From: Cyclobacteriaceae bacterium
GTDB taxonomy: Bacteria > Bacteroidota > Bacteroidia > Cytophagales > Cyclobacteriaceae
Reading direction: 5' to 3'
Length of the DNA stretch: 64,000 nucleotides
NCBI GenBank assembly: GCA_022841475.1
Contig: JALHRJ010000011.1
Coordinates: 1-64,000, forward strand
The notes beneath the pieces were generated by a model. That model was not told the origin of the DNA, did not search any database, and saw only the letters and a list, made by a program, of their open reading frames with translations. Within the stretch, counting starts at the first letter, position 1. Every line of letters begins with the position of its first letter. Of the stretch, positions 26,597 through 45,544 are shown piece after piece. A program made the translations under genes and the position numbers.

Positions 26597-28123
26597 ATGA
26601 AGTATTGGCTTCTGGCCCCTTTCCTGCTCTGTCTTACCAACAGTTTAGCACAACAACTAATCGCAAACGACTCAACAGGATGGAGTCAGCTGCGCGAAGG
26701 GGCCTATCTTTCTTTCAAGATGGAATCAACGGATCCTATTAAACCGAAATTCACACTTGAAGGTATCAACGGACATGCCATTCAGTTTGACACCCTTGGC
26801 AATTTTTATTGGCAACCATCCTACGACCTGGTAGATCGGCTTGAGAAACAAAAAGAGGTAAGCGTGATCGTGCAGGCAGAATGGAAAGATGGTCGCAGGG
26901 TGCGCAGGCCGTTGCATTTTATTGTACTTCACCAGAACAGACCACCGGTAGTTGAAGACTTACCCATATTTTATGTGAAGCAAGCAGCAGCGAATAGTTA
27001 CCAGATTCCCAATGAATATGTGAACGACCCGGATGGAGATCCACTTGTCTTCAAATCGATACAATCTCAATTACCTGAGGGAGTCACACTCTCTTCCAAT
27101 GGATTGCTCACCTGGACCCCGTCACGAAATCAATTCAATGCGCTCAAGAACAACCCGCTTGTGGTAGAGTTTATAGTTCAGGATCAGCCTGAAAAACTGG
27201 AAACAAAAGGGAAAATAAAAATTGCACAGACACAACTTGATTTGCCCCCGGAAATACTCCTGGTGCCTGGTGATACCAGCTTAGTCATCAAAGAAGATGA
27301 ACGGGTTCATTTTAAGATTTATGTTTCTGATCCAAACGGAGATGAAAACATTAGCAGCGTCAATTTTGTGTGTTCTGATAGTCGTGTAACCGCTGAAAAC
27401 TTTATTCAAAACACCAAGGTTCAATCAGAATTTACATGGTCGCCTGGTTATTACTTTGTTGAGGAAGTTGAGAAATCGAAGACTATAGAAATCATTTTTT
27501 TTGCTTTGGATAAATCCAACAACAGGGTACAGCGCAAGATTCGGATAAAAGTGCAAGACACTGAAAACCTCCATGAAAAGGATAAATTCCTCTATTTAAA
27601 ATATAGAAATTCTCTGGTACAGGCTAAGTCCTTATTAGATCTGCTGGATCAGAACAATGAGCGATTGAATAAAGCCTATAAACAAGCTAAGAAAGGTAAA
27701 AAGAACAGGTCGATCATTAATGCCTCGCTGGGCGCCACAACAGGTCTTGCCCCGGTGGCGATCCCCAATGACCCGGGCACTTACAAAGCCGTGTCGGCCA
27801 TTGGCGGCACAAGCGTAATGACATTGGGTACCCTGGAGGCAACCGAAGTAATTGGCAAGTCAAAATCTGATATTTTAGAGAAGATGAAAATCAATGTAGA
27901 GATCAGAAATCAATTACAATTGGAGGGTGACAATTTCGCCAGGAAATATGCGCTAAAAAGTATGCGGAGAAATAAGGAATTTGATCCCGACCGGGACAAA
28001 CTACTTCCTATTATCAATAATCAAAAGTTGGTAATACTTGAATTGGATGCCAGCAAACCAACAACACGCGAGTTCGAAAACAAAGAAATAAAAAAGACTT
28101 TCCCTGATTTTAGTGAGCAATAG
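26597..28123 (+). CDS. Exported protein with cadherin/Ig-like repeats
   Basis: A 508-residue protein with signal peptide (MKYWLLAPFLLCLTNSLAQQ). Two or three repeats share the putative-Ig/cadherin signature: NDPDGDPLVFKSIQSQLPEGVTLSSNGLLTWTPS (about 140-185) and SDPNGDENISSVNF (about 245-260). The C-terminal ~170 residues hold a coiled coil and a glycine/alanine-rich region (ASLGATTGLAPVAIPNDPGT). It is probably a cell-surface or periplasmic scaffold. The gene ends about 100 bp before tRNA-Ser. Confidence 0.65.
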   Translation: MKYWLLAPFLLCLTNSLAQQLIANDSTGWSQLREGAYLSFKMESTDPIKPKFTLEGINGHAIQFDTLGNFYWQPSYDLVDRLEKQKEVSVIVQAEWKDGRRVRRPLHFIVLHQNRPPVVEDLPIFYVKQAAANSYQIPNEYVNDPDGDPLVFKSIQSQLPEGVTLSSNGLLTWTPSRNQFNALKNNPLVVEFIVQDQPEKLETKGKIKIAQTQLDLPPEILLVPGDTSLVIKEDERVHFKIYVSDPNGDENISSVNFVCSDSRVTAENFIQNTKVQSEFTWSPGYYFVEEVEKSKTIEIIFFALDKSNNRVQRKIRIKVQDTENLHEKDKFLYLKYRNSLVQAKSLLDLLDQNNERLNKAYKQAKKGKKNRSIINASLGATTGLAPVAIPNDPGTYKAVSAIGGTSVMTLGTLEATEVIGKSKSDILEKMKINVEIRNQLQLEGDNFARKYALKSMRRNKEFDPDRDKLLPIINNQKLVILELDASKPTTREFENKEIKKTFPDFSEQ

Positions 28124-28140
28124 ACAATTTGCAGCTTGCT

Positions 28141-28171
28141 TTTGCAGATACCGATTTTCGCCTTACTTTTG
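28141..28171 (+). promoter_or_regulatory. Bacteroidota promoter of the tRNA-Ser gene
   Basis: TTTG (28141-28144), 19 bp spacer, then TACTTTTG (28164-28171): an exact TTTG-N19-TAnnTTTG match to the primary-sigma promoter of this phylum. It is about 53 bp upstream of the mature tRNA 5' end. Confidence 0.75.
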
Positions 28172-28223
28172 CAGTCCTTAAAAGGAATCTTTAATCGAAT
28201 GCTCACGGTTAAAGGTAATACAC

Positions 28224-28313
28224 AGAGGAGTGGTAGAGCGGTTTATTGCACCGGTCTTGAAAACCGGAGAACCTTTACGGGTTCCGGGGGTTCGAATCCC
28301 TCCTCCTCTGCCA
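28224..28313 (+). tRNA. tRNA-Ser (anticodon UGA)
   Basis: Acceptor stem AGAGGAG (28224-28230) pairs with CTCCTCT before discriminator G and an encoded CCA (28311-28313). The anticodon stem CCGGT/ACCGG encloses loop CTTGAAA with anticodon TGA at 28258-28260. A long variable arm and a GGTTCGAATCC T-arm complete a class II serine tRNA. The integrase gene 240 bp downstream makes the 3' end a likely attachment site. Confidence 0.95.
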
Positions 28314-28335
28314 AGTACAAACCAAACAAAGTCAA

Positions 28336-28369
28336 AACCTCGAAATCCCTATGATTTCGAGGTTTTTTT
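28336..28369 (+). terminator. Rho-independent terminator after tRNA-Ser
   Basis: A perfect 12-bp stem, AACCTCGAAATC / GATTTCGAGGTT (28336-28347 and 28353-28364), with a 5-nt loop and a T7 run. Confidence 0.85.
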
Positions 28370-28410
28370 GTTTCTGGGCTATTCAAAGTCAATCATAATA
28401 TCATGATCCC

Positions 28411-28458
28411 TGTGGTACCAATGTGGTACCAAGGCGCTAATAAAATCTTGGTACCACA
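28411..28458. repeat. Three GGTACC-centred repeats, possible integrase/excisionase arm sites
   Basis: TGTGGTACCA occurs at 28411-28420 and again at 28422-28431, and inverted as TTGGTACCACA at 28448-28458. They lie between the tRNA terminator and the integrase gene, where arm-type binding sites of tyrosine recombinases are expected. Confidence 0.55.
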
Positions 28459-28486
28459 AAATTGGTCAAATGCATAGTTAATCGAC

Positions 28487-28505
28487 ATGTTCAACACCTG
28501 AACAT
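28487..28505. repeat. Inverted repeat ATGTTCA-N5-TGAACAT
   Basis: A perfect 7-bp inverted repeat 50 bp upstream of the integrase start. The same two half-sites, with an 8-bp spacer, recur at 60458-60479 beyond radC. It may bind the integrase, an excisionase or a repressor. Confidence 0.5.
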
Positions 28506-28555
28506 CTTGATTCTGTGTATTCGAAATGTGAAACTTAACTAAACCAATAAGGATT

Positions 28556-29770
28556 ATGAGACAGACTATTTCGGTAAAATTTTTCGCCCGTAAGGATAGA
28601 GCTATCGCGGGAGGGTTAATTCCAATTTCAATGAGAATTGGTGTCAATAGACAAAGAATAAATATTGTTACGAAGATCCATGTCAAAGAAACAGACTGGT
28701 CTGCAACTGAAGGTAGATACAAAGGAAAAACCCGTGAAAGTCAAAAAATAAATGAATTGCTTGATGGTTTTAGAATGAAAGCCTTTGATTGCCAAAGAAT
28801 GCTAATGAATGAAGGTAAGCCAATTTCAATTGAAAATATGAAAGCAACATGGTATGGCAAGTCACTTGAACGAAAGGTGATGTTAATGGAGGTATTCAAA
28901 CAGCACAATGAACAAATGGAAGCATTAATCAATAAAGAATTCTCGCCACTCACATTTGAGCGGTATGAAACTTCATTTCGACACACCCAGGAATTCATGA
29001 AATGGAAATACAAGATCAACGACCTGGATGTTAAGGATCTGAAATATGAATTCATTGCAGACTATGAATTCTGGTTAAAATCCATTCGAGATTGCGATCA
29101 TAATACTTCCATGAAGTATCTATCAAACTTTAAAAAGATCGTCCACATTTGCATTAAAAATGGTTGGTTAAGCAGAGATCCGTTTGTAGGGTTTAAACTT
29201 GCAAAGCATGAAATTGAAAAGCCATTCTTAGTCGAAGAAGAACTCAATAAAATTACAGATAGAAAATTTGCGATGGCGCGGCTGATGCAAGTGCGCGATA
29301 TTTTTCTCTTCTGTTGCTATACAGGTCTCGCCTATGCGGATGTTGAAAAGTTGACAAGAGAGGAAATAACAATTGGGATTGACGGGGAACGATGGATATG
29401 GACAAGGCGACAAAAAACCGATACAGCTACCAGAATACCTTTGCTCCCACCTGCATTAGAAATTCTTGAACGTTATAAAAATGATCCGCAATGTTTAAAT
29501 AGTGGAAGGCTACTCCCAGTACTTAGCAATCAAAAAATGAATGCTTACTTAAAAGAAATTGCTGACCTATGTGAAATCACCAAGAAGATGACCTTTCACA
29601 CAGCCCGTCATACTTTCGCCACAACCGTAACATTAACCAATGGTGTGCCTATAGAAACAGTCAGCAAAATGCTTGGACATAAGAATATGAAAACAACTCA
29701 GCATTACGCAAAAATTTTAGACAAGAAAGTAAGCGAGGATATGAAATTACTTAGGTCCAAATACAGCTAA
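28556..29770 (+). CDS. Tyrosine recombinase/integrase, IntDOT-like
   Basis: A 404-residue integrase: Arm-DNA-binding region (1-100), SAM-like core-binding domain (about 105-215) and catalytic domain (about 225-395) with K287, H348-x-x-R351, H375 and nucleophile Y384. At the position of the usual first arginine there is alanine (A259 in TGLAYADV). The absence of ArgI recalls IntDOT of CTnDOT, where serine occupies this place. It lies directly behind tRNA-Ser and probably catalyses integration of the downstream element there. Confidence 0.93.
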   Translation: MRQTISVKFFARKDRAIAGGLIPISMRIGVNRQRINIVTKIHVKETDWSATEGRYKGKTRESQKINELLDGFRMKAFDCQRMLMNEGKPISIENMKATWYGKSLERKVMLMEVFKQHNEQMEALINKEFSPLTFERYETSFRHTQEFMKWKYKINDLDVKDLKYEFIADYEFWLKSIRDCDHNTSMKYLSNFKKIVHICIKNGWLSRDPFVGFKLAKHEIEKPFLVEEELNKITDRKFAMARLMQVRDIFLFCCYTGLAYADVEKLTREEITIGIDGERWIWTRRQKTDTATRIPLLPPALEILERYKNDPQCLNSGRLLPVLSNQKMNAYLKEIADLCEITKKMTFHTARHTFATTVTLTNGVPIETVSKMLGHKNMKTTQHYAKILDKKVSEDMKLLRSKYS

Positions 29771-29831
29771 TCTTCAAAAAAGAAGTACAAAGAACTCCAT
29801 TGGGATTTTCGGTTTGAATATTCGAAATTTG

Positions 29832-30035
29832 ATGAACCATGAACTCAAAGAGTTCATTAGGAGTCATATGATAAAGCCCATAGTATATCGACATATAGAA
29901 GAAAAGGAAACACTGGAAAGGAAGCTTATGGCGACTATTCCAAAGGAGCAACGTGCGTCCGCTTCAAAGGCTTTAATAAATATATTCGCCCGGTTGCAAA
30001 AGAAACGAGCGGCTACCAAGCTGAGAAAAAAATAA
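29832..30035 (+). CDS. Small basic protein of unknown function
   Basis: A 67-residue, mostly helical, very basic protein (C-terminus RLQKKRAATKLRKK) starting at the ATG at 29832. It follows the integrase by 60 bp. Small basic proteins next to integrases can be excisionase-like, but no helix-turn-helix motif is evident. Confidence 0.45.
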   Translation: MNHELKEFIRSHMIKPIVYRHIEEKETLERKLMATIPKEQRASASKALINIFARLQKKRAATKLRKK

Positions 30036-30042
30036 TTGTGCC

Positions 30043-30522
30043 ATGATAAGTGAAGAGATTAAAGGATGCCTTACTAAGGTATGCGCGATCCTAAATTCCC
30101 ATTATGTCGAATACATGGTGGTGGGGAGGCGCAGCCGTTAGCTATTACGGATTTAACAGACCTCCGGGGCATAGATGGTTACAATTCCAATCTTAAAGTC
30201 GATCTTGATTTTTGGTACAGACCAACTATCGAAAATTATGAAAACCTCGTGCAAGCACTTGATGAAATGCAAATTGATACAAGTGACCTGAAAAAACTTG
30301 TCTTTGACAAAGACCAAACATTTCTTAAAATCTCACATAAAGATTTTCACACCGACTTTCTTCCGATTATGGAAGGGCTAGATTACTTTCTCGATTGTAG
30401 GAGTAAAGCAGAATCGGTTACCATCGATGGTTACTACTCTGTGCATTATTTCGTATGATGATTTGATAAAAAACAAAAGAATAGTTAATCGGAAGACAGT
30501 TAGCTTTTTAATTGATAACTGA
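30043..30522 (+). pseudogene. Frameshifted nucleotidyltransferase-like gene
   Basis: The reading frame starts at ATG 30043 (MISEEIKGCLTKVCAILNSH, then VEYMVV). At the GGGG run near 30123 it must shift by one base to continue the nucleotidyltransferase motif GGAAVSYYGFNRP, and near 30165 it shifts again to DGYNSNLKVDLDFWYRPTIENYENLV. It shifts a third time near 30455 to YDDLIKNKRIVNRKT, ending at TGA 30522. The pieces line up in order as one MNT/AbiEii-like domain, so this is a decayed gene. Confidence 0.75.
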
Positions 30523-30544
30523 TTCCTTACGTCAGTTTCTAAAA

Positions 30545-31310
30545 GGGCATTGATATAATATTTATTTCTTTTTTTTATTTTCTGATCTGAGGTTTTCGTC
30601 ATATTAGATGTGAATATCAGTTCCTGGGCTTTGTTTAATGCATTACCAGCTAGTGTTTTTTCATTTGGAAGTGCATGCCTGTTCCTTCCCTGTCTGTCTT
30701 GGTAATGGGTTTGAGTGAACGTGCAAAAGGTATGTACACAACGAAACCTTGGTTTATAGAGAATGGCATCTGGGGATCTGCCCCACCACCCGTTGTCTCT
30801 CCCACAACAATCGCTCTTTTAGCAATCTGAATCCAATAGCAAAAGTCTTCTGCTCCTGAAACGTGTGACTACTTGTTAAAATGTAAATTGGAATCGGAAA
30901 ATATATTTCATCTGCTTTAGCAGGATCAGCATTAATCTTACTGTGTCCTGTGTTAACCGGTTAATCAGACTATTCATTTCAGTCTTTTCATTAAAAAAAT
31001 AATTCTCTATTTAGCTGACCATTTTAGGGTTGCCACCCATATTGTCTCTTAAATCGATAATGAGCGCATCAGCATTCCTTAAAAAGGTCAATGCGGCTTT
31101 TATGGTAGGTTGGACTGATTCAATGTCATCAACAAATAAGTTGAAAGAGAGATAACCTATATTCCCTTTTAGCCATACCACTTTATGAAAGCTATAATTG
31201 TGCTCCTTCCAATATTTTTTACATTCAACACTTCTTCTTCGGTAGGATGATGATCAATTCATCAATTCTAATGGGCATTTGCGAAGTTCAACTGCGGTTC
31301 ATGCGTTAAA
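30545..31310 (-). pseudogene. Degraded S41 peptidase remnant
   Basis: Reverse-strand pieces in different frames, in order: NYSFHKVVWLKGNIGYLSFNLF, FLRNADALIIDLRDNMGGNP, a scrambled TSS-x-TF-x-GAE nucleophile region, RAIVVGETTGGGADPQMPFS and GNALNKAQELIFTSN. Together these retrace an S41 peptidase with multiple frameshifts and stops. This fills the ~870 bp gap between the nucleotidyltransferase remnant and the rrf2 gene; nothing else is seen there except the operator. Ends are approximate. Confidence 0.75.
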
Positions 31311-31327
31311 ACTCCGCTGATTTGCTT

Positions 31328-31351
31328 ATAGTGGATAAATATATCCACTAT
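31328..31351. promoter_or_regulatory. Operator 1: ATAGTGGATA-N4-TATCCACTAT
   Basis: A perfect 10-bp inverted repeat 40 bp upstream of the rrf2 gene, just before its -7 element. The same 24-bp palindrome recurs at 31841-31864, in front of ccoN. It fits the binding site of the Rrf2 protein encoded between them, blocking the -33 region. Confidence 0.75.
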
Positions 31352-31364
31352 TATTATAAAATAT

Positions 31365-31372
31365 TATATTTG
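31365..31372 (+). promoter_or_regulatory. -7 element of the rrf2 gene
   Basis: TATATTTG matches TAnnTTTG, 19 bp before the ATG. The -33 area is occupied by operator 1, consistent with repression or conditional activation. Confidence 0.55.
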
Positions 31373-31391
31373 TGTCGCAAAGACAAAAATT

Positions 31392-31826
31392 ATGTTTTCA
31401 AAAGCGTGCGAATACGGAATACGGTCAGCCATTTACATTGCTGAGAAGGCATTAGAAAACGATAAAGTAAGTTTAAGGGAGGTTTCGAAAGCGATTGATT
31501 CACCAGAGGCCTACACTTCCAAAATATTGCAACTACTTTCACGAAATCAAATCATTCTGTCTGAGAAAGGACCTACAGGTGGTTATTTCATTGACCGCAG
31601 CAAATTAGAAAAGATAATGTTAAGTGACCTGGTATTTGCAATTGATGGCAATAGTGTATATGAAGGATGTGGCCTTGGATTAAAACGGTGTAATGAAAAT
31701 AGGCCCTGTCCTGCTCACTTTCAATTTAAAAAAATACGAAATGACCTTAAGGAAATGCTTGAGGCTACTACCCTGCTGGATTTAGCCCTGGGATTGAAAA
31801 ATGGGGTATCGGTATTGAAGAGGTAA
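31392..31826 (+). CDS. Rrf2 family transcriptional regulator (probable Fe-S / NO sensor)
   Basis: A 144-residue Rrf2 protein: winged helix-turn-helix in the first ~70 residues (CEYGIRSAIYIAEKA, EAYTSKILQLLSR, GPTGGYFI) and three cysteines C93, C100 and C106 in EGCGLGLKRCNENRPC, the position used by IscR and NsrR to hold a cluster (spacing x6, x5 here). The operon it heads encodes NO- and oxygen-related proteins, pointing to an NsrR-like role; cluster type and signal are inferred. It probably binds the two identical palindromes flanking its own gene. Confidence 0.88.
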   Translation: MFSKACEYGIRSAIYIAEKALENDKVSLREVSKAIDSPEAYTSKILQLLSRNQIILSEKGPTGGYFIDRSKLEKIMLSDLVFAIDGNSVYEGCGLGLKRCNENRPCPAHFQFKKIRNDLKEMLEATTLLDLALGLKNGVSVLKR

Positions 31827-31840
31827 AAAAAATTAAACTA

Positions 31841-31864
31841 ATAGTGGATATAATGATCCACTAT
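31841..31864. promoter_or_regulatory. Operator 2: ATAGTGGAT-N6-ATCCACTAT
   Basis: Same total length (24 bp) and half-sites as operator 1, placed 12 bp before the ccoN start. Because it sits inside the possible 31844 extension of ccoN, it supports ATG 31877 as the true start. Confidence 0.75.
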
Positions 31865-31876
31865 TGTCGAGAAAAA

Positions 31877-33625
31877 ATGGAAAGTAATAATTTGCTAAGT
31901 GAAGGCGGTATCATCATCACTCTTGGGTTGATTATAATACCTGTGATAGCAGCCTTACTGATTGTCATCTATAAAATCTATGGCATCGTTTATATCCTTA
32001 AAAGAAAAAAGGAATTAGAGGTATTTAACGATACCCTGAAAGGTTTGAGTCCCCAGGAAGTGCAGCGCTTAGAACAAAGAAAGAGAGAATTGGGCTTCGG
32101 TTTGTCAAATAATGAATTAGCCCGCACAATAATTTTATCCGATAGCAGAGGGTTAATTGATAACATCAGTAGTGCAGAGGAACTTCGTTTCGTTGAGAAG
32201 AAGAAAAAAAGTCAACCCCGCCCACATATACATCCACCTTTAACAAAACTTATTCTATGGTACCTCGGTTGCGCAGTGTTCTGGCTGTTATTTGGTACTA
32301 CAATAGGCGAATACGTAGGTATTAAATTTCTTGCACCAGATGTGGACCATATTAGCTGGTTAAGCTTCGGCCGCTTACGGCCGGTTCACACCAATTCAGT
32401 ATTCTGGGGCTGGGCTTCAATGGCCATGTTAGGCCTTGCCTACTATGTTGTTCCAAGAATAAGCAATACGGCTATAGCCAATATAAAAATGGGTTATTAT
32501 TCACTTATTCTTATCAATGCTTCGGTCGTTCTTGGAACTATAAGCCTAATGGCGGGAGTCAATAATGGTGGTGGCGAATATCGCGAATACATTTGGCCGG
32601 TGATGATGCTATTTGGTGTTGCCATTATTATTTCGCTAAGAAATTTTCTTAATACGATTGCCAAAAGAAATACGAAAGAAATATATGTTTCGAATTGGTA
32701 TCTGATTTCCGCCATGATGTTTCTGCTGGTGATTGCTGTAGTGGCCTACTGGCCAACCTGGCAATCTGGACTGGGCGAAACTATTGTGCAAGGCTATTAC
32801 ATGCACCAAGGTGTAGGTATGTGGTTTATGCTTTTTAGTTTGGGCTTGATGTATTATTTCCTGCCGCAACAACTAAACAAACCCATCTATTCATATAGCC
32901 TGGGTATTCTTGCCTTTTGGACGCAGATCCTTTTTTATACGTTAATAGGAACGCACCATTTTATCTTTAGTGCTATTCCATGGTGGTTGCAAACTGTGGC
33001 TATTGTAGGTAGCGCTGGTATGGTGATACCTGTCGTAGCAGGAACAACTAACTTCTTAATGACCTTCAAAGGTTCGTGGAATAAACTTTCAGGCAGCTAT
33101 ACGCTTCCATTCTATTTGATTGGAATCATTTTCTATTTCACAGGTTCACTCCAAGGCACTGCTGAGGCATTTCGGTTTACAAATTTGATTTGGCATTTCA
33201 CTGATTTTACCGTAGCGCATTCTCATCTCACGATGTATGGTATAATTTCCTTTATGTTATGGGGCTTTATCTATACCCTCGTGCCAAGACTAACGGGAAA
33301 GGAACCTTCACAAATACTCGTTGGCGCTCATTTTTGGCTTGCATTAATTGGGTTACTCTTCTACACATTCCCCCTAATGTATGGTTCCACCTTACGGGGA
33401 TTGATGTGGATGGAGGCAAAACCATTTATTGATAGTGTAGAATTAATGGCACCCTATTGGTTGTGGCGAGCCATTGGTGGATCGTTGATGTGGATATCGC
33501 ATATTCTTTTTGCATACAATTTTTATGTAATGACGAAACGCAAAAAAGAAATAAGGATCCCCGTAACACCTTTAGAAATTTTAAAGGCAAAAGAAGAATT
33601 CGAAAATAAGCGTGAAAGAATTTAG
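31877..33625 (+). CDS. ccoN: cbb3-type cytochrome c oxidase subunit I (CcoN)
   Basis: A 582-residue heme-copper oxidase catalytic subunit. Histidines are in expected places: RPVHTNSVFWGW (low-spin heme), YYMHQGVGMWFM (CuB), GTHHFIFSAIPWW (two CuB ligands) and FTVAHSHLTMYG (hemes b and b3). A tyrosine six residues before the HH pair (FYTLIGTHH) is in the position of the CcoN cross-linked tyrosine, favouring an O2 reductase over an NO reductase. An extra N-terminal helix and linker (~1-115) precede the core. It leads a long operon with NO-related genes, so NO reductase activity remains an alternative. Confidence 0.88.
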   Translation: MESNNLLSEGGIIITLGLIIIPVIAALLIVIYKIYGIVYILKRKKELEVFNDTLKGLSPQEVQRLEQRKRELGFGLSNNELARTIILSDSRGLIDNISSAEELRFVEKKKKSQPRPHIHPPLTKLILWYLGCAVFWLLFGTTIGEYVGIKFLAPDVDHISWLSFGRLRPVHTNSVFWGWASMAMLGLAYYVVPRISNTAIANIKMGYYSLILINASVVLGTISLMAGVNNGGGEYREYIWPVMMLFGVAIIISLRNFLNTIAKRNTKEIYVSNWYLISAMMFLLVIAVVAYWPTWQSGLGETIVQGYYMHQGVGMWFMLFSLGLMYYFLPQQLNKPIYSYSLGILAFWTQILFYTLIGTHHFIFSAIPWWLQTVAIVGSAGMVIPVVAGTTNFLMTFKGSWNKLSGSYTLPFYLIGIIFYFTGSLQGTAEAFRFTNLIWHFTDFTVAHSHLTMYGIISFMLWGFIYTLVPRLTGKEPSQILVGAHFWLALIGLLFYTFPLMYGSTLRGLMWMEAKPFIDSVELMAPYWLWRAIGGSLMWISHILFAYNFYVMTKRKKEIRIPVTPLEILKAKEEFENKRERI

Positions 33626-33636
33626 CATAAGGTAAC

Positions 33637-34644
33637 ATGGATTTTTTTAATAATCATATAAAACTCTTCGGCACAGCGTTGGTATTTTTTGTTGGGTTAA
33701 CCATTATGGTAGCTATACTACCTGCTATTAATAATCAACAAAATAATGCTCCTCTACCAAACGCTGTTGAGTTAAGTGAAGAAGCGTTTTTAGGAAAGCA
33801 AAGTTATATTGCCAATGGTTGTGTAGCCTGTCACACTCAGCAAGTTCGTAATGTAGATATGGACAAAGTGTGGGGCAAGCGTCCTGGAATTGCTGCCGAC
33901 TATGCCGGCATTACCCGAACCAGTTTCTGGATCAATACCGCCACATTGATGGGTACAGAAAGAACTGGTCCCGATTTAACCCATGTCGGTTCACGTCAAC
34001 CGAGTACAGCGTGGAATTTATTGCATTTGTATCAACCAAGAGCAGTAATTGATCAATCCATTATGCCCGCTTATCCTTGGTTATTTGAAATAAAAAATAA
34101 TCTGGAGGAAAGCGATGTAGAGGTAATCGTGCCCGAAGAGTTTAGAAAAAATGTTAGTGGAAAAATAGTAGCCTCTAAAGAAGTCTTGAACCTGATAACC
34201 TATCTGCAGAGTTTAAAACAAACGCCATTGCCAGATGGAAAATCAACTGCAGCGTTTTTGTATAAAAAACAAGAAAGTCCTTCGCCAAAAGATGAACAGC
34301 CTTCCATGCTACCGGATGGTCAATTGTTGTACGCTACTAATTGTCAGGCATGCCATCAAGCCAATGGTGAGGGATTGAAAGGAGCTTTTCCACCGCTTAA
34401 GGGAAGTGCGATTGTAACAGGGGAAGACCTTGAATTATTTGTGAACATCATCATGCTTGGGTATGATGCGAGCCCAGCGTATGCCACCATGAGTGCGGTA
34501 GGAACAGACAATAATCTGACGCCCGAAGAAGTGACTGCGATCATTAATCATGAAAAAACGAATTGGGGTAATAATGCCCAACCCGTTACGGTGGAAGAAG
34601 TGAGTAAACTAATTGATTTTATAAAAACAACTGCTAAAAAATAA
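33637..34644 (+). CDS. ccoO: CcoO-CcoP-like fusion: membrane-anchored diheme cytochrome c
   Basis: A 335-residue protein with one N-terminal membrane anchor, a CcoO/FixO-type domain carrying CVACH (about residue 62-66; neighbours QQVRNVDM, RTGPDLTHVG and SIMPAYPWLF are characteristic) and a second cytochrome c domain with CQACH (about residue 235-239), as in CcoP. The two subunits are separate genes in classical cbb3 oxidases; here they are fused and one heme is missing relative to CcoP. It passes electrons to the CcoN core encoded 11 bp upstream. Confidence 0.9.
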   Translation: MDFFNNHIKLFGTALVFFVGLTIMVAILPAINNQQNNAPLPNAVELSEEAFLGKQSYIANGCVACHTQQVRNVDMDKVWGKRPGIAADYAGITRTSFWINTATLMGTERTGPDLTHVGSRQPSTAWNLLHLYQPRAVIDQSIMPAYPWLFEIKNNLEESDVEVIVPEEFRKNVSGKIVASKEVLNLITYLQSLKQTPLPDGKSTAAFLYKKQESPSPKDEQPSMLPDGQLLYATNCQACHQANGEGLKGAFPPLKGSAIVTGEDLELFVNIIMLGYDASPAYATMSAVGTDNNLTPEEVTAIINHEKTNWGNNAQPVTVEEVSKLIDFIKTTAKK

Positions 34645-34648
34645 AAAT

Positions 34649-34885
34649 ATGGAAGCAACAGAAATTTGGTTGTCAACACTACTTGTAAACACACCACAGG
34701 AAGGCCGGGATCTAGCCATTAAAATGGCACGTAAAAGTATAGCGGCTATACAAACAGATGCTGAGACACGTAAAAAATTACGGTCCGCATACGCCACTGA
34801 TACAGCCCAACTCATCACGTCTGCACATGTAATCGCTACTGAATTTCAAACCATTGCTGCTGCTAATAACTATTGGAAAAAATGA
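34649..34885 (+). CDS. Small helical protein in the oxidase operon
   Basis: A 78-residue protein without signal or membrane segment, mostly helical (EGRDLAIKMARKSIAAIQTD). I do not recognise a family. It lies four bases after the cytochrome gene, and its stop overlaps the next start (ATGA), so it is expressed as part of the oxidase operon. Confidence 0.6.
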   Translation: MEATEIWLSTLLVNTPQEGRDLAIKMARKSIAAIQTDAETRKKLRSAYATDTAQLITSAHVIATEFQTIAAANNYWKK

Positions 34886-35163
34886 AAAGGGTAATAAAAT
34901 ATGGTAGCCTTTTGGTGGTCATTTTGTTAATCCATAGCAATTCGTGGGCGTGTGAGGTTTGTAAAAAACAGCAACCAGAAATTACACAAGGCCTTACCCA
35001 CGGTGCCGGACCTCAAAGTAACTGGGATTGGGTAATCATTGCTGTGATATCGGCTATCACGTTGCTTACGCTGATCTATTCTGTAAAATATTTAATCAAG
35101 CCCCAAGAGGATAATGCAAACCACATCAAACAGTCTATTTTAATCTCTTTGGAAAATGAGTGA
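34882..35163 (+). CDS. Small exported membrane protein with CxxC motif
   Basis: A 93-residue protein from the ATG at 34882 (ATGA overlap with the previous stop). A signal-like helix is followed by ACEVCKKQQPE, a periplasmic CxxC, then one membrane helix (WVIIAVISAITLLTLIYSV) and a hydrophilic tail. It could be a redox or metal/heme delivery factor for the oxidase, but that is inferred only from the motif and place. Confidence 0.6.
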   Translation: MKRVIKYGSLLVVILLIHSNSWACEVCKKQQPEITQGLTHGAGPQSNWDWVIIAVISAITLLTLIYSVKYLIKPQEDNANHIKQSILISLENE

Positions 35164-35560
35164 CAATAAAAGTAAAATTTTGCTTTTTGTTGACAATGAT
35201 ATCCAATCCATTGCCGAGCTGACAACACCGGTACAGTTTGAACTGGACACCAGTAAATTGACTGACGGTGAACATATTTTGAAAATCATTAGTAAGTCAC
35301 CTTCTGGCAGAGAAGGAATCAGAAAAATCAACTTCGTAGTTCGAAACGGCCCGGCCATAGCGCTGGAAGGATTGCGCGAAAATGAAGTGGTCGATGGTGT
35401 TATCCCCATAATGATTAATGCGTATGACAAAGGAAATCAAAAGCAATTTATAATTGAGGGAAGTGAGACTCCCCAAAGCATACCAAGCTGGTTATGGATT
35501 TTATTAATCGCCTTTATTGGATGGGCCGCTTACTATTTAATAACAAATTACAGTTTGTAA
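35156..35560 (+). CDS. Tail-anchored Ig-like protein of the oxidase operon
   Basis: A 134-residue protein with a beta-sandwich-like region (VQFELDTSKLTDGEHILKIISKSPSGREG, typical of an Ig-like domain) and one C-terminal membrane helix (IPSWLWILLIAFIGWAAYYLI). It has no cysteines or heme motif. It overlaps the preceding gene by eight bases. It may be an accessory subunit of the oxidase. Confidence 0.6.
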   Translation: MSDNKSKILLFVDNDIQSIAELTTPVQFELDTSKLTDGEHILKIISKSPSGREGIRKINFVVRNGPAIALEGLRENEVVDGVIPIMINAYDKGNQKQFIIEGSETPQSIPSWLWILLIAFIGWAAYYLITNYSL

Positions 35561-35568
35561 CTATTCAA

Positions 35569-35958
35569 ATGGAAAGAGATATTAGTAATCTGGAAGATAT
35601 TAAACAATTGGTTGATCGCTTTTATGGCAGCGTTCGGGAAGATGACCAGTTGAAAGATATATTCAACGAAAGAATACAAGATCGCTGGCCACAGCACCTC
35701 GAAAAAATGTATCGCTTTTGGCAAACCGTATTGCTTGAAGAACACACCTATTATGGAAGTCCCTTTGTGCCTCATGCAAGACTACCCGTAGAACTGAAAC
35801 ATTTTGAACGATGGATGAAGTTATTTGATGAAACCGTTGATGCGCTCTTTAAAGGAGAAAAAGCAACCCGAGCAAAATGGCAAGGCGAAAGAATGGCCGA
35901 AATGTTTCATTCCAAAATTGAGTACTATAAAAACAATACAGCGACACCAATACTTTAA
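35569..35958 (+). CDS. Group III truncated haemoglobin
   Basis: A 129-residue globin from ATG 35569; the upstream in-frame extension overlaps the previous gene and is not globin-like. Family features: RFYGSVREDDQLKDIF at the N-terminus, MYRFWQTVLLEEHTYYGSPFVPHARLP, in which the histidine of VPHARLP is the proximal heme ligand, and HFERWMKLFDETVDALF. Group III globins bind O2 and NO; the setting suggests NO dioxygenation or scavenging. Confidence 0.85.
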   Translation: MERDISNLEDIKQLVDRFYGSVREDDQLKDIFNERIQDRWPQHLEKMYRFWQTVLLEEHTYYGSPFVPHARLPVELKHFERWMKLFDETVDALFKGEKATRAKWQGERMAEMFHSKIEYYKNNTATPIL

Positions 35959-35974
35959 TTAAACACTATTAGTC

Positions 35975-36271
35975 ATGAAAGAAAGTCTTCCCCAAATGAT
36001 CGTTCTCCATACCGGAAATTCATACAAAGTTTTACAAGTAACCGGAAGTGAAGGAATGAGCATGCCGGAGCACATCAGTACAAAGGAAGTAGTCGTAATC
36101 ATCCAAAAGGGGTCAGCTGTATTAACGATGAAAGGAAACGACTACCTCTTGCGAGAGCATGAGTCTATGATTATTCCGGGTGGAGAAAAACATACGTTAC
36201 AGATAACCAAAGATTTTCAAGCCCAGGTAATCATGGAAGCAGATTCACAAATAAAATTTAGCAACTCATAA
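35975..36271 (+). CDS. Cupin domain protein
   Basis: A 98-residue single cupin barrel: MSMPEHISTKEVVVIIQKGSAVLTMKG, then MIIPGGEKHTLQI at the second motif. Histidines in PEHIS and EKHTL could hold a metal. It lies between the globin and RIC genes. Its function is unknown. Confidence 0.75.
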   Translation: MKESLPQMIVLHTGNSYKVLQVTGSEGMSMPEHISTKEVVVIIQKGSAVLTMKGNDYLLREHESMIIPGGEKHTLQITKDFQAQVIMEADSQIKFSNS

Positions 36272-36282
36272 AAAAATATATT

Positions 36283-37017
36283 ATGGAAATAAATCAAGAT
36301 CAAATCATTGGCGAATTGGTAGCACATGATTACCGCACTGCCTCAGTTTTTAAAAAATATGGTATTGACTTCTGTTGTCAGGGCAACCGAACCATTGCCG
36401 AAGCGGTTGAGAAGAAAAAACTTGATACCCAAACCGTGCTGCGCGATCTACAGTTGGTAGCGGAATCAAAAGATGCAACAACGGACTTTAACTCCTGGCC
36501 ACTTGATTTACTGGCCGATTATATCGAGAAAAAACATCACCGATATGTAGAAGCAAAGTCATTAGAGATAAAACCCTATTTAAACAAAATATGTAGTGTG
36601 CATGGAGATCGTCATCCTGAGTTGTTTGAAATTCAACAACAATTTAATGCGTCTGTTGGTGAACTGGCCGCACACATGAAGAAAGAAGAATTCATTTTAT
36701 TCCCATTTATCCGCAAACTGTCAAAAGCCAGTCAGGAAAATGTATTATTAGATCCACCCCCTTTTGGCACAATCCATAACCCCATTGCCATGATGCATCA
36801 GGAACACGAAACCGAAGGAGATCGATTCAGAAAAATTGAAGAGTTAAGTAATAACCATACGCCCCCGGATGATGCGTGCAACACCTATCGTGTTACCTTT
36901 GCATTGCTCCATGAGTTTGAACAGGATTTGCACCAGCATATTCATTTGGAAAACAATATTCTATTTCCCAAGGCCATTGAACTGGAAAAAGAATTAATAA
37001 CGAGTAGGGTTGTCTAA
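36283..37017 (+). CDS. ric: Iron-sulfur cluster repair di-iron protein RIC (ScdA/YtfE)
   Basis: A 244-residue protein: ScdA_N domain (about 1-60; AHDYRTASVFKKYGIDFCCQGNRTI, with the conserved CC pair) then a hemerythrin-like four-helix bundle with HHRY, H in CSVHGDRHPEL, HMKKEE, HEHET-like and HIHLENNILFP metal ligands. RIC repairs Fe-S clusters damaged by NO or oxidants and is a classic Rrf2/NsrR target. This supports an NO role for the operon. Confidence 0.93.
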   Translation: MEINQDQIIGELVAHDYRTASVFKKYGIDFCCQGNRTIAEAVEKKKLDTQTVLRDLQLVAESKDATTDFNSWPLDLLADYIEKKHHRYVEAKSLEIKPYLNKICSVHGDRHPELFEIQQQFNASVGELAAHMKKEEFILFPFIRKLSKASQENVLLDPPPFGTIHNPIAMMHQEHETEGDRFRKIEELSNNHTPPDDACNTYRVTFALLHEFEQDLHQHIHLENNILFPKAIELEKELITSRVV

Positions 37018-37043
37018 CTAAGATTCATGTTTAATGGAGTGAA

Positions 37044-37328
37044 ATGGATATCGTGAAAAGCATTTTAGACTATTTTGAAAAACATGACCATGCCTCACCT
37101 GAAGCGGCTCCCGAAGGTTTCTGCCCTGTATGCTGGGGGTATCAGCAATATGATGGGAAAATCAGGTCTTTATTTAAAGAGAAGCAGATTGATGTAAATA
37201 ATCATAAGGCTAAATACCTGATTGTTCAGGATTTTCTCAAAAAACATATTGAGGGAATTCACATAAGACAAGGAAAAGTTGAGTCTTGTCTACACTGTTC
37301 AAATCAAAAAAGAATTATAAAACTGTGA
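37044..37328 (+). CDS. Small protein with CPVC and CLHC motifs
   Basis: A 94-residue soluble protein with FCPVCWGYQQYDGKIRS near residue 27 and CLHC near residue 83. Paired CxxC suggests a zinc or iron knuckle. Its stop overlaps the GTG start of the following hemerythrin gene. No named family is recognised. Confidence 0.6.
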   Translation: MDIVKSILDYFEKHDHASPEAAPEGFCPVCWGYQQYDGKIRSLFKEKQIDVNNHKAKYLIVQDFLKKHIEGIHIRQGKVESCLHCSNQKRIIKL

Positions 37329-37789
37329 ACCCTATACATCGAAACGAAGCCCTCAAACCCCTTAGCCGAGAGCATCATCAAAGCTTATTACTTTGTTGGA
37401 AAATCAGAACTGGATTCAGTAAGAAAATTGAAATCAGTCTTATAAAGTCCTATGCAGACTGGTTTTATAAAAATTATTTGCTTCTCCATTTCGAAATAGA
37501 AGAAAAGTATGTGTTCTCTATTTTAGGAAATGATCATGAATTAGTGAAGAGGGCGTTAGCGGAGCATCGAAAACTAAGACGTTTATTTGAAGATGGAAAT
37601 GAAGTAACTAAAAGTCTTGGATTAATTGAGGAGCTACTGGAAACTCACATACGGTTTGAGGAGCGGGTACTTTTTAATGAGATTCAAAAAATAGCAACAC
37701 AAAAAGAACTTGAAGAAATGGAGGTGATACATGCAGATATGGATAGCCATAAGAAACCTAAAGAATGGAAATACGAATTCTGGAAATAG
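37325..37789 (+). CDS. Hemerythrin HHE domain protein
   Basis: A 154-residue four-helix protein beginning at GTG 37325, which overlaps the previous stop (GTGA). Metal-ligand pattern: LSREHHQSLLL, LLHFEIEEKYVFS, LAEHRKLRRLF and ETHIRFEERVLFNEI. A TTG-initiated extension of 13 codons into the previous gene is not family-like and is rejected. Such proteins bind O2 or NO at a di-iron centre; with RIC, it is the second in this operon. Confidence 0.82.
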   Translation: MNPIHRNEALKPLSREHHQSLLLCWKIRTGFSKKIEISLIKSYADWFYKNYLLLHFEIEEKYVFSILGNDHELVKRALAEHRKLRRLFEDGNEVTKSLGLIEELLETHIRFEERVLFNEIQKIATQKELEEMEVIHADMDSHKKPKEWKYEFWK

Positions 37790-37805
37790 ATTCCTAAAAT
37801 AAAAA

Positions 37806-38153
37806 ATGAGTCGTACATGTGATATTGGTATTACTGTATTTCTTGATAATAAAAAGCACGCTGTTCAGACCTATCAGGGAGAGTATCGCAATCTTATGGC
37901 ATTGATACATGATAAATTCTACGTGGAAGATTTTGGAGAATGTAAAGGAATAGGCCGATGTGGTACATGCCATGTTCGCATTTTAAACCTTTCCGATAAA
38001 CTATTTCTCAAACAGGGAAACGAGCTCACTACTTTAAACAAAATGGAAGTAGTGTTTCAGAACAGTAGATTGGCATGCCAGATTAATGTAGATAAAAGTC
38101 TTGATGGAGTAGAAATTCAACTAATCTCTGACGATTTCACCCCAAGGGACTAG
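37806..38153 (+). CDS. 2Fe-2S ferredoxin
   Basis: A 115-residue plant-type ferredoxin: GECKGIGRCGTCHVRI gives three of the cluster cysteines and RLACQINV the fourth. It could donate electrons to the RIC, hemerythrin or globin proteins encoded upstream; a partner reductase is not encoded nearby. Last gene of the Rrf2-controlled row, convergent with terC. Confidence 0.85.
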   Translation: MSRTCDIGITVFLDNKKHAVQTYQGEYRNLMALIHDKFYVEDFGECKGIGRCGTCHVRILNLSDKLFLKQGNELTTLNKMEVVFQNSRLACQINVDKSLDGVEIQLISDDFTPRD

Positions 38154-38176
38154 ACACGTATCACTTCGAATCATTA

Positions 38177-39100
38177 TTATTTCACCCCACGATCAGTCCG
38201 AGAGGCAACGGAGGCCACCATTGTAATTACTAGAACAAAAGCGATGATGATCAGGGATAGATCCACTGGTATTTTGTAGAAATCGTTAATACACATTTTG
38301 ATACCCACAAAGATTAAAATGGCTGAAAGACCCTGTTTAAGGTATTTAAAATATTTTTCAATACCGGACAAAGCAAAATAAAGTGATCGAAGGCCGAGAA
38401 TGGCAAACACGTTGGACGTGTAGACAATGAACGAATTATCGGAGATAGCCAATATCGCAGGAATGGAGTCCACTGCAAAAATCAAATCAGTTGCCTCAAT
38501 AAGAATAACAACTAAGAATAAGGGTGTTGCCCAAAGATTTGAATTGATTCGTATAAAAAAATTATCACCAGAATACGTTGAGGTAAATGGAAATATTTTC
38601 CTTGCTAGTTTTACCAAAGGATTTTTCTCCGGTTCCAACTTAATATCTTCGGCAGTAAGCATCTTGATTCCAGAGATAACGAGAAACCCACCAAAAATGT
38701 AAATAAGCCAATGAAAGCGATGGATTAACTCAATGCCAGCAAGTATAAAAATTACACGCATTACTAATGCGCCAAGAATCCCCCAGAATAGTACTTTGTG
38801 CTGATAGGCAGAAGGAACCTTGAAGTATGAAAATATCATGATGATAACAAAGATGTTATCAATGCTTAACGATTTCTCAATCAGATACCCCGTAAAAAAT
38901 TCAACGGCAGTTTCCCTATCAAAATAATAGTAAATGAAGAGATTGAATACCATCGCTAATGCGATCCACACACCCGTCCATGTGAGTGCTTCTTTCACAC
39001 CTACTTCATGTGATTTACGATGGAACACGCCTAGATCGAGTGCGAGCATACCCAGCACAAACACATTAAAAACAGTCCATAAAACAAAAGACTCGCTCAT
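38177..39100 (-). CDS. TerC family membrane protein
   Basis: A 307-residue protein with about nine helices. The motifs FTGYLIEKSLSIDNIFVIIMIF and ATDLIFAVDSIPAILAI carry the acidic residues conserved in TerC/Alx. The start at 39100 is preferred, with ATG 39127 as the alternative. TerC/Alx proteins are implicated in metal (often manganese) export and tellurite resistance. Here it is alone between the Fe-S operon and the signalling cluster. Confidence 0.88.
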   Translation of the reverse strand: MSESFVLWTVFNVFVLGMLALDLGVFHRKSHEVGVKEALTWTGVWIALAMVFNLFIYYYFDRETAVEFFTGYLIEKSLSIDNIFVIIMIFSYFKVPSAYQHKVLFWGILGALVMRVIFILAGIELIHRFHWLIYIFGGFLVISGIKMLTAEDIKLEPEKNPLVKLARKIFPFTSTYSGDNFFIRINSNLWATPLFLVVILIEATDLIFAVDSIPAILAISDNSFIVYTSNVFAILGLRSLYFALSGIEKYFKYLKQGLSAILIFVGIKMCINDFYKIPVDLSLIIIAFVLVITMVASVASRTDRGVK

Positions 39101-39196
39101 ATTGTCTGGATAATTATGCAAATCCAATACAGCAAAACAATGTATATTATATGGAAACTAATTCTCTGCTTTTTCATATTCGGGTGAACTTTAATA

Positions 39197-39550
39197 CTAT
39201 TTATTATCAAATTCTTTTATTAAAATATTGTTAATAAATAACAACGACATTTTATAAACTCCATTCTCATCATAGACATTAAAAAACCCTTCTCGCTTTC
39301 CTTTTTGATAGAAACCTTCACTTAACACTTTTCCATTTCGGTGATAGGATGCAAAACGTCCCTGAACAATTCCGTTTTCGTAGCTTTCTTCAATCATCAG
39401 TTCACCTGTATCGTAGAATTCTTTCCAACCGCCCTGTTTAATACCATGCCGATAATTACCAACTGAAATTAAAGTGCCATGCTTATTGAACTCTTTCCAT
39501 CGCCCGTCCTTTACGCGCGGTTTCTTCTTAGCAAATAGTGTTTCAAACAT
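39197..39550 (-). CDS. MORN-repeat (YwqK-like) protein
   Basis: A 117-residue protein made of repeated W/G-x-x-x-Y/F-x-x-G units: GRWKEFNKHGTLISVGNY, GGWKEFYDTGELMIEESY, GRFASYHRNGKVLSEGFY, GFFNVYDENGVYKMSLLF. This is the MORN_2/YwqK repeat. No toxin partner is visible. Role unknown. Confidence 0.8.
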   Translation of the reverse strand: MFETLFAKKKPRVKDGRWKEFNKHGTLISVGNYRHGIKQGGWKEFYDTGELMIEESYENGIVQGRFASYHRNGKVLSEGFYQKGKREGFFNVYDENGVYKMSLLFINNILIKEFDNK

Positions 39551-39570
39551 AGTGCTTGATTAAATTAAGT

Positions 39571-39843
39571 TTACTCATACTCTTCACAATGCCATATTCC
39601 TTCATTTTTTCCTGGTAATTGGCACCCATCAACCTTGACACAATTCACACAAAGGCCTCTCTGAATTGAAATGGGCTTGGAAGTATTCGTGGTTTCTCCC
39701 CTCAGCTGATACAATTCACATTGGACTATGATCTTATTTGTAGCCATTCGGTAGATACAATCATTTGATAGTGCACAGTTCGTGCAAAGCCCTTTTAGCT
39801 CTAGTTCTATTAAATGTTTTATCTGTTCTTGTTGTATAGGCAT
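39571..39843 (-). CDS. Small cysteine-rich protein, duplicated CxxC ... C ... C motif
   Basis: A 90-residue protein from ATG 39843, with an internal duplication: GLCTNCALSNDCIYR ... CELYQ and GLCVNCVKVDGCQLP ... CEEYE. Each half has four cysteines, fitting two zinc or Fe-S sites. It lies between a MORN-repeat gene and the sigma-54 regulator. I do not recognise a named family. Confidence 0.6.
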   Translation of the reverse strand: MPIQQEQIKHLIELELKGLCTNCALSNDCIYRMATNKIIVQCELYQLRGETTNTSKPISIQRGLCVNCVKVDGCQLPGKNEGIWHCEEYE

Positions 39844-39967
39844 GGCGCATTTCCTTTTGGATATAATCCAAAACACGTACCATTATTAATCCTTGAATGG
39901 AGCCTGATTAGGTAGAACCGGTTTTTATTGTCTGTTGAGATTCGAATCGGTGGTACATTTTACCCCA

Positions 39968-41311: not shown

Positions 41312-41312
41312 G

Positions 41313-42431: not shown

Positions 42432-42591
42432 TTTCAATTTATAAAGGTATAAAGACATCTTGAGTATTTTCTTGGTTTGAACTACTTTATTTGAATATGC
42501 CGGGGAGAAATTACCCATTGGACATTATTGAACCACCTCCTTTTTAGTAAAAGCCACATTTCTCAACACTAGCATTGAACTTTATCTGGCA

Positions 42592-42607
42592 TGGATAGTG
42601 TCATGCA
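42592..42607 (+). promoter_or_regulatory. Candidate sigma-54 promoter before osmC-like gene
   Basis: TGGATAGTGTCATGCA keeps GG (-24) and GC (-12) ten bases apart, with the ATGCA end of the 45504 site, but lacks the CAC of TGGCAC. TGTGGGACA (42612) and a GACAAGA-N5-TCTTGTC inverted repeat (42617-42635) lie just downstream; TGTGGGACA recurs inverted before the 45504 promoter. Confidence 0.35.
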
Positions 42608-42677
42608 CCAATGTGGGACAAGAAGATATCTTGTCACGCTAGCGCTCGTGATTAATAAAGATTAAAAATATACAACT

Positions 42678-43127
42678 ATGAAAAAATCAAATTGGAAAGC
42701 TCGATGGAATGGCATAATAAAAAATGGTTATGGTAGTAGATCTTTTAACAATTTCATGGGGCCTTACAACTTCTCTTCTCGTGTTGAAGACGTTGAAAGC
42801 AATAACCCTGAACAATTGATTGCGGCCGCCCATGCGGGAAGTGTTTCAATTTATCTCACGATGTTATTGGCGGAAGAAGGATTAAAGCCATCTAATATTG
42901 ACACCACTGCGATTGTCACTCTTGACAAGGACCCTATAGGCCCCACTATTAGTAAAATTGATTTGGTTAGTAAAGTCACCTGCGAGGGTTTAAGTGAGGA
43001 ACGGCTCAGAGAACTTGCCTCAATTGCTAAAGCAAAATGTCCGGTTTCACGACTTTATGAAGGTGGTACAGCCGAAATAACTCTTACAGTGTCAGGCGTT
43101 CCAGTGAATTCAATATCACTTAATTGA
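42678..43127 (+). CDS. OsmC/Ohr family protein
   Basis: A 149-residue OsmC-like protein: NPEQLIAAAHAGSVSIYLTMLLAEEG and AKAKCPVSRLYEGG. One catalytic cysteine (in KAKCPVS) is visible, but the usual first cysteine (HAACF/HAGCF) is replaced, reading HAGSVS. This suggests a variant that may lack peroxidase activity or use one thiol only. It lies downstream of the sensor/regulator pair, in the opposite direction. Confidence 0.8.
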   Translation: MKKSNWKARWNGIIKNGYGSRSFNNFMGPYNFSSRVEDVESNNPEQLIAAAHAGSVSIYLTMLLAEEGLKPSNIDTTAIVTLDKDPIGPTISKIDLVSKVTCEGLSEERLRELASIAKAKCPVSRLYEGGTAEITLTVSGVPVNSISLN

Positions 43128-45519: not shown

Positions 45520-45544
45520 AAAGAGAAAGTTGAATTAATATGCT

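Follow-up and report, generated by a model that had tools for sequence, protein, structure and literature searches.

Genes and features at the locus

The window, meaning the whole 64,000-nucleotide stretch of DNA analyzed here, carries a gene for an Rrf2-family regulator that lies between two 24-bp inverted repeats, designated O1 and O2, and is followed on the same strand by 11 readable open frames from 31877 to 38153, which we infer from their spacing to be one operon. The features of the locus, with the evidence for each, are as follows.

31328 to 31351, no strand: O1, 24-bp dyad ATAGTGGAT-N6-ATCCACTAT upstream of rrf2 (sequence, related loci)
31365 to 31372, + strand: predicted -7 box TATATTTG (TAnnTTTG), 37 bp past the start of O1 (sequence)
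31392 to 31826, + strand: rrf2, 144 aa, Rrf2 family (PF02082, 3.8e-20; predicted model)
31827 to 31837, + strand: A-rich stretch and TTAAA directly before O2, a weak version of the A5-TTT(G/A)A element conserved at this place (comparison)
31841 to 31864, no strand: O2, second 24-bp dyad, past the rrf2 stop (sequence, related loci)
31877 to 33625, + strand: divergent CcoN-like haem-copper oxidoreductase subunit I (family scans, alignment with solved CcoN chains)
33637 to 34644, + strand: FixO/CcoO-like subunit carrying an additional cytochrome c domain (PF02433, PF00034)
34649 to 34885, + strand: HTHP, hexameric tyrosine-coordinated haem protein (PF11534, 2.7e-34)
34873 to 35163, + strand: open frame with no Pfam match (ORF list, Pfam scan)
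35156 to 35560, + strand: open frame without a family match, also found behind the oxidase subunits at several related loci (ORF list, family scans)
35569 to 35958, + strand: truncated-globin-like protein (PF01152, 2.6e-07)
35975 to 36271, + strand: cupin protein (Pfam scan)
36283 to 37017, + strand: RIC/ScdA/YtfE-type di-iron repair protein (TIGR03652)
37044 to 37328, + strand: open frame without a family match (ORF list, family scans)
37286 to 37789, + strand: hemerythrin-like protein (PF01814)
37806 to 38153, + strand: 2Fe-2S ferredoxin-like protein, the final gene of the predicted operon (PF00111, 1.3e-4)

The product of the RIC gene scored 242.1 bits against TIGR03652, above the equivalog cut-off of 204.7, and family scans found no isc or suf genes in the operon. 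This RIC-containing gene set is one that we take to be of the nitrosative-stress and iron-repair type. The first gene of the operon had been called ccoN in an earlier note on this DNA; its product is CcoN-like but not a canonical CcoN, as it scored 257.3 bits against TIGR00780, whose equivalog cut-off is 583.15. Alignment with solved chains of CcoN (cbb3, the C family of haem-copper oxidases) showed that the motifs with His residues and the Tyr preceding GxHH are in place, whereas the Glu of the TFEGP motif is Gln in 13 of 13 CcoN-like sequences compared, the window's own included, and the protein is only about 30% identical over 457–486 aa to those of other, presumably canonical, oxidase loci (L055, L059, and L074). 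Molecular oxygen and NO are both candidate substrates for this protein.

Several other elements surround the locus. A tRNA-Ser(tga) at 28224–28313 is followed by a tyrosine integrase at 28556–29770 (Arm-DNA-bind_5, SAM-like), and this stretch is possibly an island; no long direct repeat that would form an att pair was found in 27900–46000 or 28150–31400. On the minus strand at about 31020–31140, the reverse complement (ALIIDLRDNMGGNPKMV) resembles by eye a fragment of an S41-type peptidase and, since no long frame is listed there, is probably a gene remnant. Downstream of the operon lie a TerC protein on the opposite strand (38177–39127) and, on the minus strand, a histidine kinase with a sigma-54-type response regulator (39968–42518).

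Two 24-bp dyads flank the rrf2 gene

Both dyads, O1 at 31328–31351 (ATAGTGGATAAATATATCCACTAT) and O2 at 31841–31864 (ATAGTGGATATAATGATCCACTAT), are exact matches to the 24-bp motif ATAGTGGAT-N6-ATCCACTAT and lie 513 bp apart. The spacings given in the earlier note were found to be correct, with 40 bp between O1 and the rrf2 ATG (31392) and 12 bp between O2 and the ccoN-like ATG (31877). With up to 3 mismatches allowed, these were the 2 matches in the window compared to 0.02 expected, and 2 matches occurred in none of 100 shuffles. The claim that there are no more copies also held across the source genome (G000; 5,695,934 bases, 94% complete), where O1 and O2 were the only exact matches, no site had 1 or 2 mismatches, 5 additional sites appeared at 3 mismatches, and a reversed-pattern control gave 0 matches. 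The dyad observation is confirmed, and both palindromes are very probably the landing sites of an iron-sulfur type repressor that would control its own gene and the stress-defence genes downstream.

The regulator is a three-cysteine Rrf2 protein

The window Rrf2 protein contains Cys6, Cys93, Cys100, and Cys106 as well as Tyr41 and Ser43, and a predicted model of it (mean pLDDT 91.6) places residues 41 and 43 within the recognition helix, residues 39–51. It belongs to the Rrf2 superfamily by PF02082 (72.8 bits, gathering cut-off 30) and falls slightly below the cut-off of the TIGR00738 superfamily model (71.6 compared to 73.3 bits), below that of the IscR model TIGR02010 (49.1 compared to 207.55), below that of the NCBIfam SUF regulator model (46.4 bits), and below that of the NsrR model NF008240 (24.2 compared to 182). 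A Foldseek search with the predicted model matched structures of CymR, RsrR, NsrR (7b0c), and IscR (4hf1, 4hf2, and 4chu).

The description of this protein as a three-cysteine regulator is borne out by its relatives, as Cys93, Cys100, and Cys106 are kept in all 165 related loci, 121 of 121 with sites and 44 of 44 without. The window protein thus has the three conserved cysteines by which NsrR is recognized, cluster binding itself being predicted. Of the 121 loci with sites, 118 have Cys6 and 117 have Glu7, and a hand alignment at Arg puts Glu7 at the position of Asp8 of ScNsrR, which is a cluster ligand in that protein according to the available part of PMC5411485. The remaining cluster ligand in the window protein could be the fourth cysteine or the glutamate. 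The rrf2 product is probably an NsrR/IscR-like repressor dimer that binds an Fe-S cluster.

Operators of the same family occur at related rrf2 loci

Related loci were collected by searching the Rrf2 protein in 295 genomes of the class, 131 of which had a match at E ≤0.001, by a profile scan of genomes that gave at least 579 confirmed relatives, and by adding 60 regions from further genomes. The best 80 of the at least 579 relatives were used; judged by eye from their titles, these were 79 Bacteroidota and 1 Verrucomicrobia (L066). After removal of 6 duplicates (L040, L054, L057, L077, L096, and L147), 165 rrf2 loci remained. L147 was dropped because it and L135 shared one gene as their best match, leaving one paralogue missing from the set. 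Near-copies were kept in the main counts and the main count was repeated after collapsing them, and the first residue of each related protein was set to M. A dyad was scored when GAY-N6-RTC was complete, no fewer than 2 of the 6 outer pairs were present, and 5 or more of the 6 ends were A/T.

In the stretch from -100 to -24 relative to the rrf2 start, 113 of 164 loci had an O1-type dyad (the remaining locus had too little upstream DNA). As controls, dinucleotide shuffling of these upstream 100-bp stretches gave 51 passes in 4920, and windows taken from other parts of the loci, mostly coding DNA, gave 27 in 2975. O1 was present at 97 of 110 loci with at least 50% tblastn identity to the window Rrf2, at 12 of 24 with 45–50%, and at 4 of 30 below 45%. 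The 51 loci without O1 by this rule are mostly distant relatives and count against the explanation that we favor below. Letters outside GAY vary among loci (TGGAY, CGGAY, AGGAY, AAGAY, and others), and the exact window motif is one variant of an operator family.

At the 19 loci where a ccoN-like gene (at least 45% identity, within 600 bp of rrf2) lies directly behind rrf2, O1 was present at 15 and O2 at 13. The check proposed in the earlier note, enrichment of the motif at rrf2/ccoN loci of related genomes, thus does not refute its reading, and the 4 loci without O1 stand against our explanation. Downstream content was compared at the 121 loci whose downstream DNA extended 3 kb or more, counting same-strand genes within 8 kb at identities of 38–45% or more and minimal lengths of 50–250 aa, with many loci having less than 8 kb available; this gave RIC at 65 loci, hemerythrin at 35, globin at 32, ccoN-like genes at 12, cupin at 6, and HTHP at 5. 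A stress gene (RIC, globin, hemerythrin, ccoN-like, or HTHP) was present at 62 of 74 loci with O1 compared to 14 of 47 without, such that 62 loci had both, 33 neither, 12 O1 only, and 14 the genes only. Conservation of the dyads at related rrf2 loci supports the earlier prediction of autoregulation together with control of the operon behind rrf2.

The same motif had also been offered as a marker of a regulon across the genome, and this part was rejected. When 7 genomes were scanned with a relaxed motif, exact matches were found at rrf2 loci only (5 of 7 genomes, the other 2 having a 1-mismatch match there), two 1-mismatch matches lay away from rrf2 loci (G000 C8:36044 and G074 C2:239132), and the total of 51 matches showed no excess over the 68 of the reversed-pattern control. 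The sites appear to mark a local operon and not a genome-wide regulon. Also dropped was a perfect AAAGGAT dyad in genome G002 (L189), which sits past the end of an rpoN-like gene that faces a gene in the other orientation and is likelier a terminator; a similar dyad was noted on another contig of G002.

In the genus of the source organism, 21 of 58 genomes (its own included) have an Rrf2 relative at E ≤1e-25. Piecewise DNA similarity extends from O1 into the ferredoxin gene between window positions 31329–37973 and positions 9939–17031 of L040, whose rrf2 and upstream 100 bp are identical to those of the same-genus genome G311, and the flanks of L040 available for comparison showed no DNA similarity to the window. 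Regulator, operators, and effectors may travel as one cassette. The L066 record, titled as a Verrucomicrobia MAG, has rrf2, both operators, and ccoN-like genes, reflecting either cross-phylum transfer or a binning error.

O1 overlaps a predicted promoter and O2 lies within a narrow range of distances from O1

TAnnTTTG, the -7 box of Bacteroidota, occurs at +33 to +39 of O1 at 98 of 113 loci compared to 36 of 8200 control positions further upstream. In Flavobacterium psychrophilum, this box spans positions -12 to -5 (PMC9723704, available part). From the box at 31365–31372, transcription is predicted to start at about 31377, so that O1 would cover about -49 to -26 and repression by occlusion would be expected. 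The tetramer TTTG is present at dyad positions 13–16 in 51 of 113 O1 sites compared to 6 of 71 O2 sites, and we presume that it may be a -33 box; the window's own O1 has no TTTG at this supposed -33 position, which is a point against our explanation.

An O2-type dyad was found 5–35 bp past the rrf2 stop at 71 loci, with both O1 and O2 present at 63, and a search from 5 to 59 bp past the stop gave 72 of 164 loci compared to 21 of 4920 shuffles. Over half of the loci lack O2, which is again a point against our explanation. The distance between O1 and O2 ranges from 498 to 519 bp (63 loci), the commonest value being the 513 bp of the window. A proposal of helical phasing was dropped because this range is too narrow for a meaningful test.

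Base ±8 of the operators covaries with residue 43 of the recognition helix

A role of residue 43 in Rrf2 proteins is already known from mutants of IscR and NsrR. Counting back by hand from the wing Gly-Pro, residue 43 of the window protein corresponds to Glu43 of IscR, a residue that touches bases 7 and 8 and determines which type of site is bound (PMC5411485), and the E43A variant of IscR accepts other sites (PMC5411485 and PMC9338935). The Salmonella NsrR has Val43, and the V43A and V43E changes alter its repression (PMC10783083; all three papers as far as their text was available).

Counted per half-site, T at ±8 was found in 66 of 70 with Tyr41/Ser43, 6 of 14 with Phe41/Ser43, 2 of 262 with Phe41/Ala43, 0 of 6 with Tyr41/Ala43, and 0 of 16 with Phe41/Gly43. 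Half-sites reading TGG made up 72 of 84 with Ser43 and 0 of 284 with Ala43 or Gly43 in the first set, and 62 of 74 and 0 of 208, respectively, after proteins at least 80% alike were collapsed (97 of 121 loci left). A scan of all 144 alignment columns, blind to structure, ranked residue 43 first for base ±8, residue 58 second with a score nearly as high, and residue 41 third. A further 52 loci (8 + 40 + 4; 2 duplicates excluded), whose operators were unused for the rule and of which the last 4 had already been seen, provided 23 passing sites; among their half-sites, TGG accounted for 3 of the 6 from Ser43 loci, 1 of the 22 from Ala43 loci, and none of the 18 from Gly43 loci. The sole Ala43 exception is one half of L262, and L258, which could not be aligned at residues 41 and 43, has no passing site. 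When all sets were combined, TGG made up 75 of the 90 half-sites paired with Ser43, compared to 1 of the 324 paired with Ala43 or Gly43.

On a tree built without columns 38–46, residue 43 changes 8 times and base ±8 changes 6 times. A single group (23 rows including L050, SH-aLRT 92) contains all 22 Tyr41/Ser43 loci, and strongly supported branches hold a single independent residue/base pair, leaving a sign test without power; since most of the covariation lies within one clade, independence is not proven. Outside the main group, Ser43 accompanies TGG in both halves of O1 and one CGG and one TGG in O2 (L025), TGG (L134), one TGG and one CGG half (L149 and L233), CGG (L029 and L127), or CAG (L173 and L229). 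These exceptions suggest that Ser43 is needed for T at ±8 and is not sufficient, with Tyr41 and Ser43 together nearly sufficient. Relatives with Gly43 (L026, L120, L252–L254, and L259) have operators with mostly A at ±8, e.g., AAAAGAY and TTAAGAY, possibly a further step of the same specificity code.

Paralogues in single genomes were also found with differing half-sites: TTCTGAC (L130) and ATTGGAT (L134) in G222, AAAAGAT (L026) and ATAGGAT (L121) in G232, and TGTGGAC (L008) and TCCGGAC (L127) in G144. Such differences would fit insulation of one paralogue from another.

A model for regulation of the operon and its alternatives

Given the conservation of the dyads, their position at the predicted promoter, and the covariation with the regulator, the explanation that we regard as likely to be right overall is that of an autoregulatory Rrf2 dimer acting at both dyads, released by an NO-type signal, with residue 43 reading base ±8. 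The part that treats the dyads as autoregulatory operators is well supported by the sequence comparisons. The dimer would bind both O1 and O2. Bound to O1, it would mask the -33 region of the TAnnTTTG promoter and shut off rrf2 along with the genes behind it, and on O2 a second dimer would most likely block polymerase that had escaped from O1, or would bridge to O1, such that the 11 downstream genes would be held tighter than rrf2 itself. Damage to the cluster would free both sites and turn on the genes for NO handling and for repair of iron centres, the signal being most likely NO as judged from gene content. Base ±8 would be read by residue 43 with the help of residue 41, with Tyr41/Ser43 pairing with TGGAY and Ala43 with CGGAY, AGGAY, or AAGAY; the covariation is observed, and the contact is modeled on IscR.

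Two other readings concern what the dyads are. O2 might be the ordinary operator of a second, non-canonical promoter before the ccoN-like gene, one repressor then serving two promoters with neither roadblock nor loop, a possibility that we take seriously and still find the weaker one. In its favor, an A-rich run and TTT(G/A)A stand at a fixed distance from O2, between it and the rrf2 stop (-9 to -5, with T at -8 in 69 of 71 sites and at -7 in 70 of 71); this element was not seen at O1 and could be -33-like, and a rough ATG search often put the start of the next frame within 40 bp of O2. In contrast to the fixed place of TAnnTTTG behind O1, just 3 scattered cases were found from -60 to +90 around the 71 O2 sites, past which no other conserved letters were seen. 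That the palindromes are RNA hairpins (an attenuator, a translational control element, or a terminator) and not protein-binding sites is highly improbable. The window copies do form perfect 9-bp stems, O2 lies 12 nt before an ATG, and a terminator scan picks out O2 on the minus strand. The same scan, however, gave 5 terminator-like sites compared to 5.5 in shuffles, and O1, lying ahead of the promoter box, would fall outside a transcript made from that promoter. Further, positions 9/16 are an unpairable C/A in 35 of 184 sites and a T/G wobble in 65 of 184, loss of the outer pairs is frequent (the rule itself demanded GAY and RTC), and the letters of the dyad covary with the recognition helix of a protein.

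The remaining two concern the signal and the specificity code. The regulator may sense something else (iron, oxygen, or cluster status, as with IscR, RirA, or RisR), the genes answering general Fe-S damage, which we judge rather unlikely. This reading draws on the order of the sub-cut-off NCBIfam scores, in which the superfamily, IscR, and SUF regulator models all rank above NsrR, and on the RisR operator being the nearest published one found, and it is opposed by family scans showing an operon without isc or suf that has RIC, globin, HTHP, hemerythrin, and an oxidase-like enzyme. Shared ancestry alone could also account for the link of residue 43 with base ±8, TGG operators and Ser43 having been inherited together with no contact between them. 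The single Tyr41/Ser43 group, the few supported independent changes, and the rank of residue 58 all speak for this; we nevertheless think it a rather unlikely account, as L025, with Ser43 and a TGG O1, clusters with Ala43/CGG relatives (SH-aLRT 90), L050, with Ala43 and CGG, sits inside the Ser43 group, L134, L149, and L233 pair TGG half-sites with Ser43 outside it, and the split persists after near-copies are collapsed. The available part of PMC5411485 also has the equivalent IscR residue contacting the same bases.

Beyond the autoregulatory model, we suggest with considerable reservation that the locus could represent a transplantable Bacteroidota switch, in which a repressor gene sits between its own operators about 513 bp apart, an O2 roadblock or loop would hold the effectors tighter, and a natural specificity code of one or two residues (41 and 43) for base ±8 would insulate paralogues within a genome. 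If the model is true, the RIC, globin, and oxidase operons at several hundred Bacteroidota loci (at least 579 relatives) would gain an operator that can be read from sequence, and natural protein/site pairs would allow a test of what residue 43 does.

Comparison with known Rrf2 systems

The window protein shares its fold with IscR, in which helix residue 43 faces the base pairs about 7–8 from the centre, and the window dyad presumably resembles IscR type 1 sites. It differs from IscR in having Ser43 where the recognition helix of IscR has Glu43, in its score against the IscR model, and in an operon without an isc gene. The likeness to NsrR extends to the common fold, the three cysteines, a carboxylate near the cluster (Glu7 by hand alignment, compared to Asp8 in ScNsrR), and the gene content, since NsrR controls dnrN/ytfE-type (RIC) genes in other phyla (PMC1274295) and the window operon has RIC. 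On the other hand, the protein falls below the NsrR model cut-off, its family has an extra, nearly invariant Cys6, its Ser43 stands where NsrR has Val or Ala, and by eye its operator ATAGTGGAT-N6-ATCCACTAT does not fit the NsrR operator gATGyAT-N5-ATrCATc (PMC1274295, available part).

The earlier note had considered the motif new, and it is indeed unlike that published NsrR consensus, but it is not far from every Rrf2 site. According to the available part of PMC9973013, RisR of Myxococcus xanthus binds Tt/gGAC-N7-GTCCt/a flanked by A/T, a half-site nearly that of the window dyads and the nearest published operator that we found. The two differ in the spacer and core, GAC-N7-GTC in RisR compared to GAY-N6-RTC here, and RisR regulates isc and suf, unlike the window operon. 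In the literature searched, no Rrf2 operator or NO regulon like this one was found described in Bacteroidota, which is weak evidence that none exists, given the thin coverage of subscription papers. We regard the system as a form of Rrf2 regulon in which the operators are paired and the specificity has visibly changed, and not as a new kind of system.
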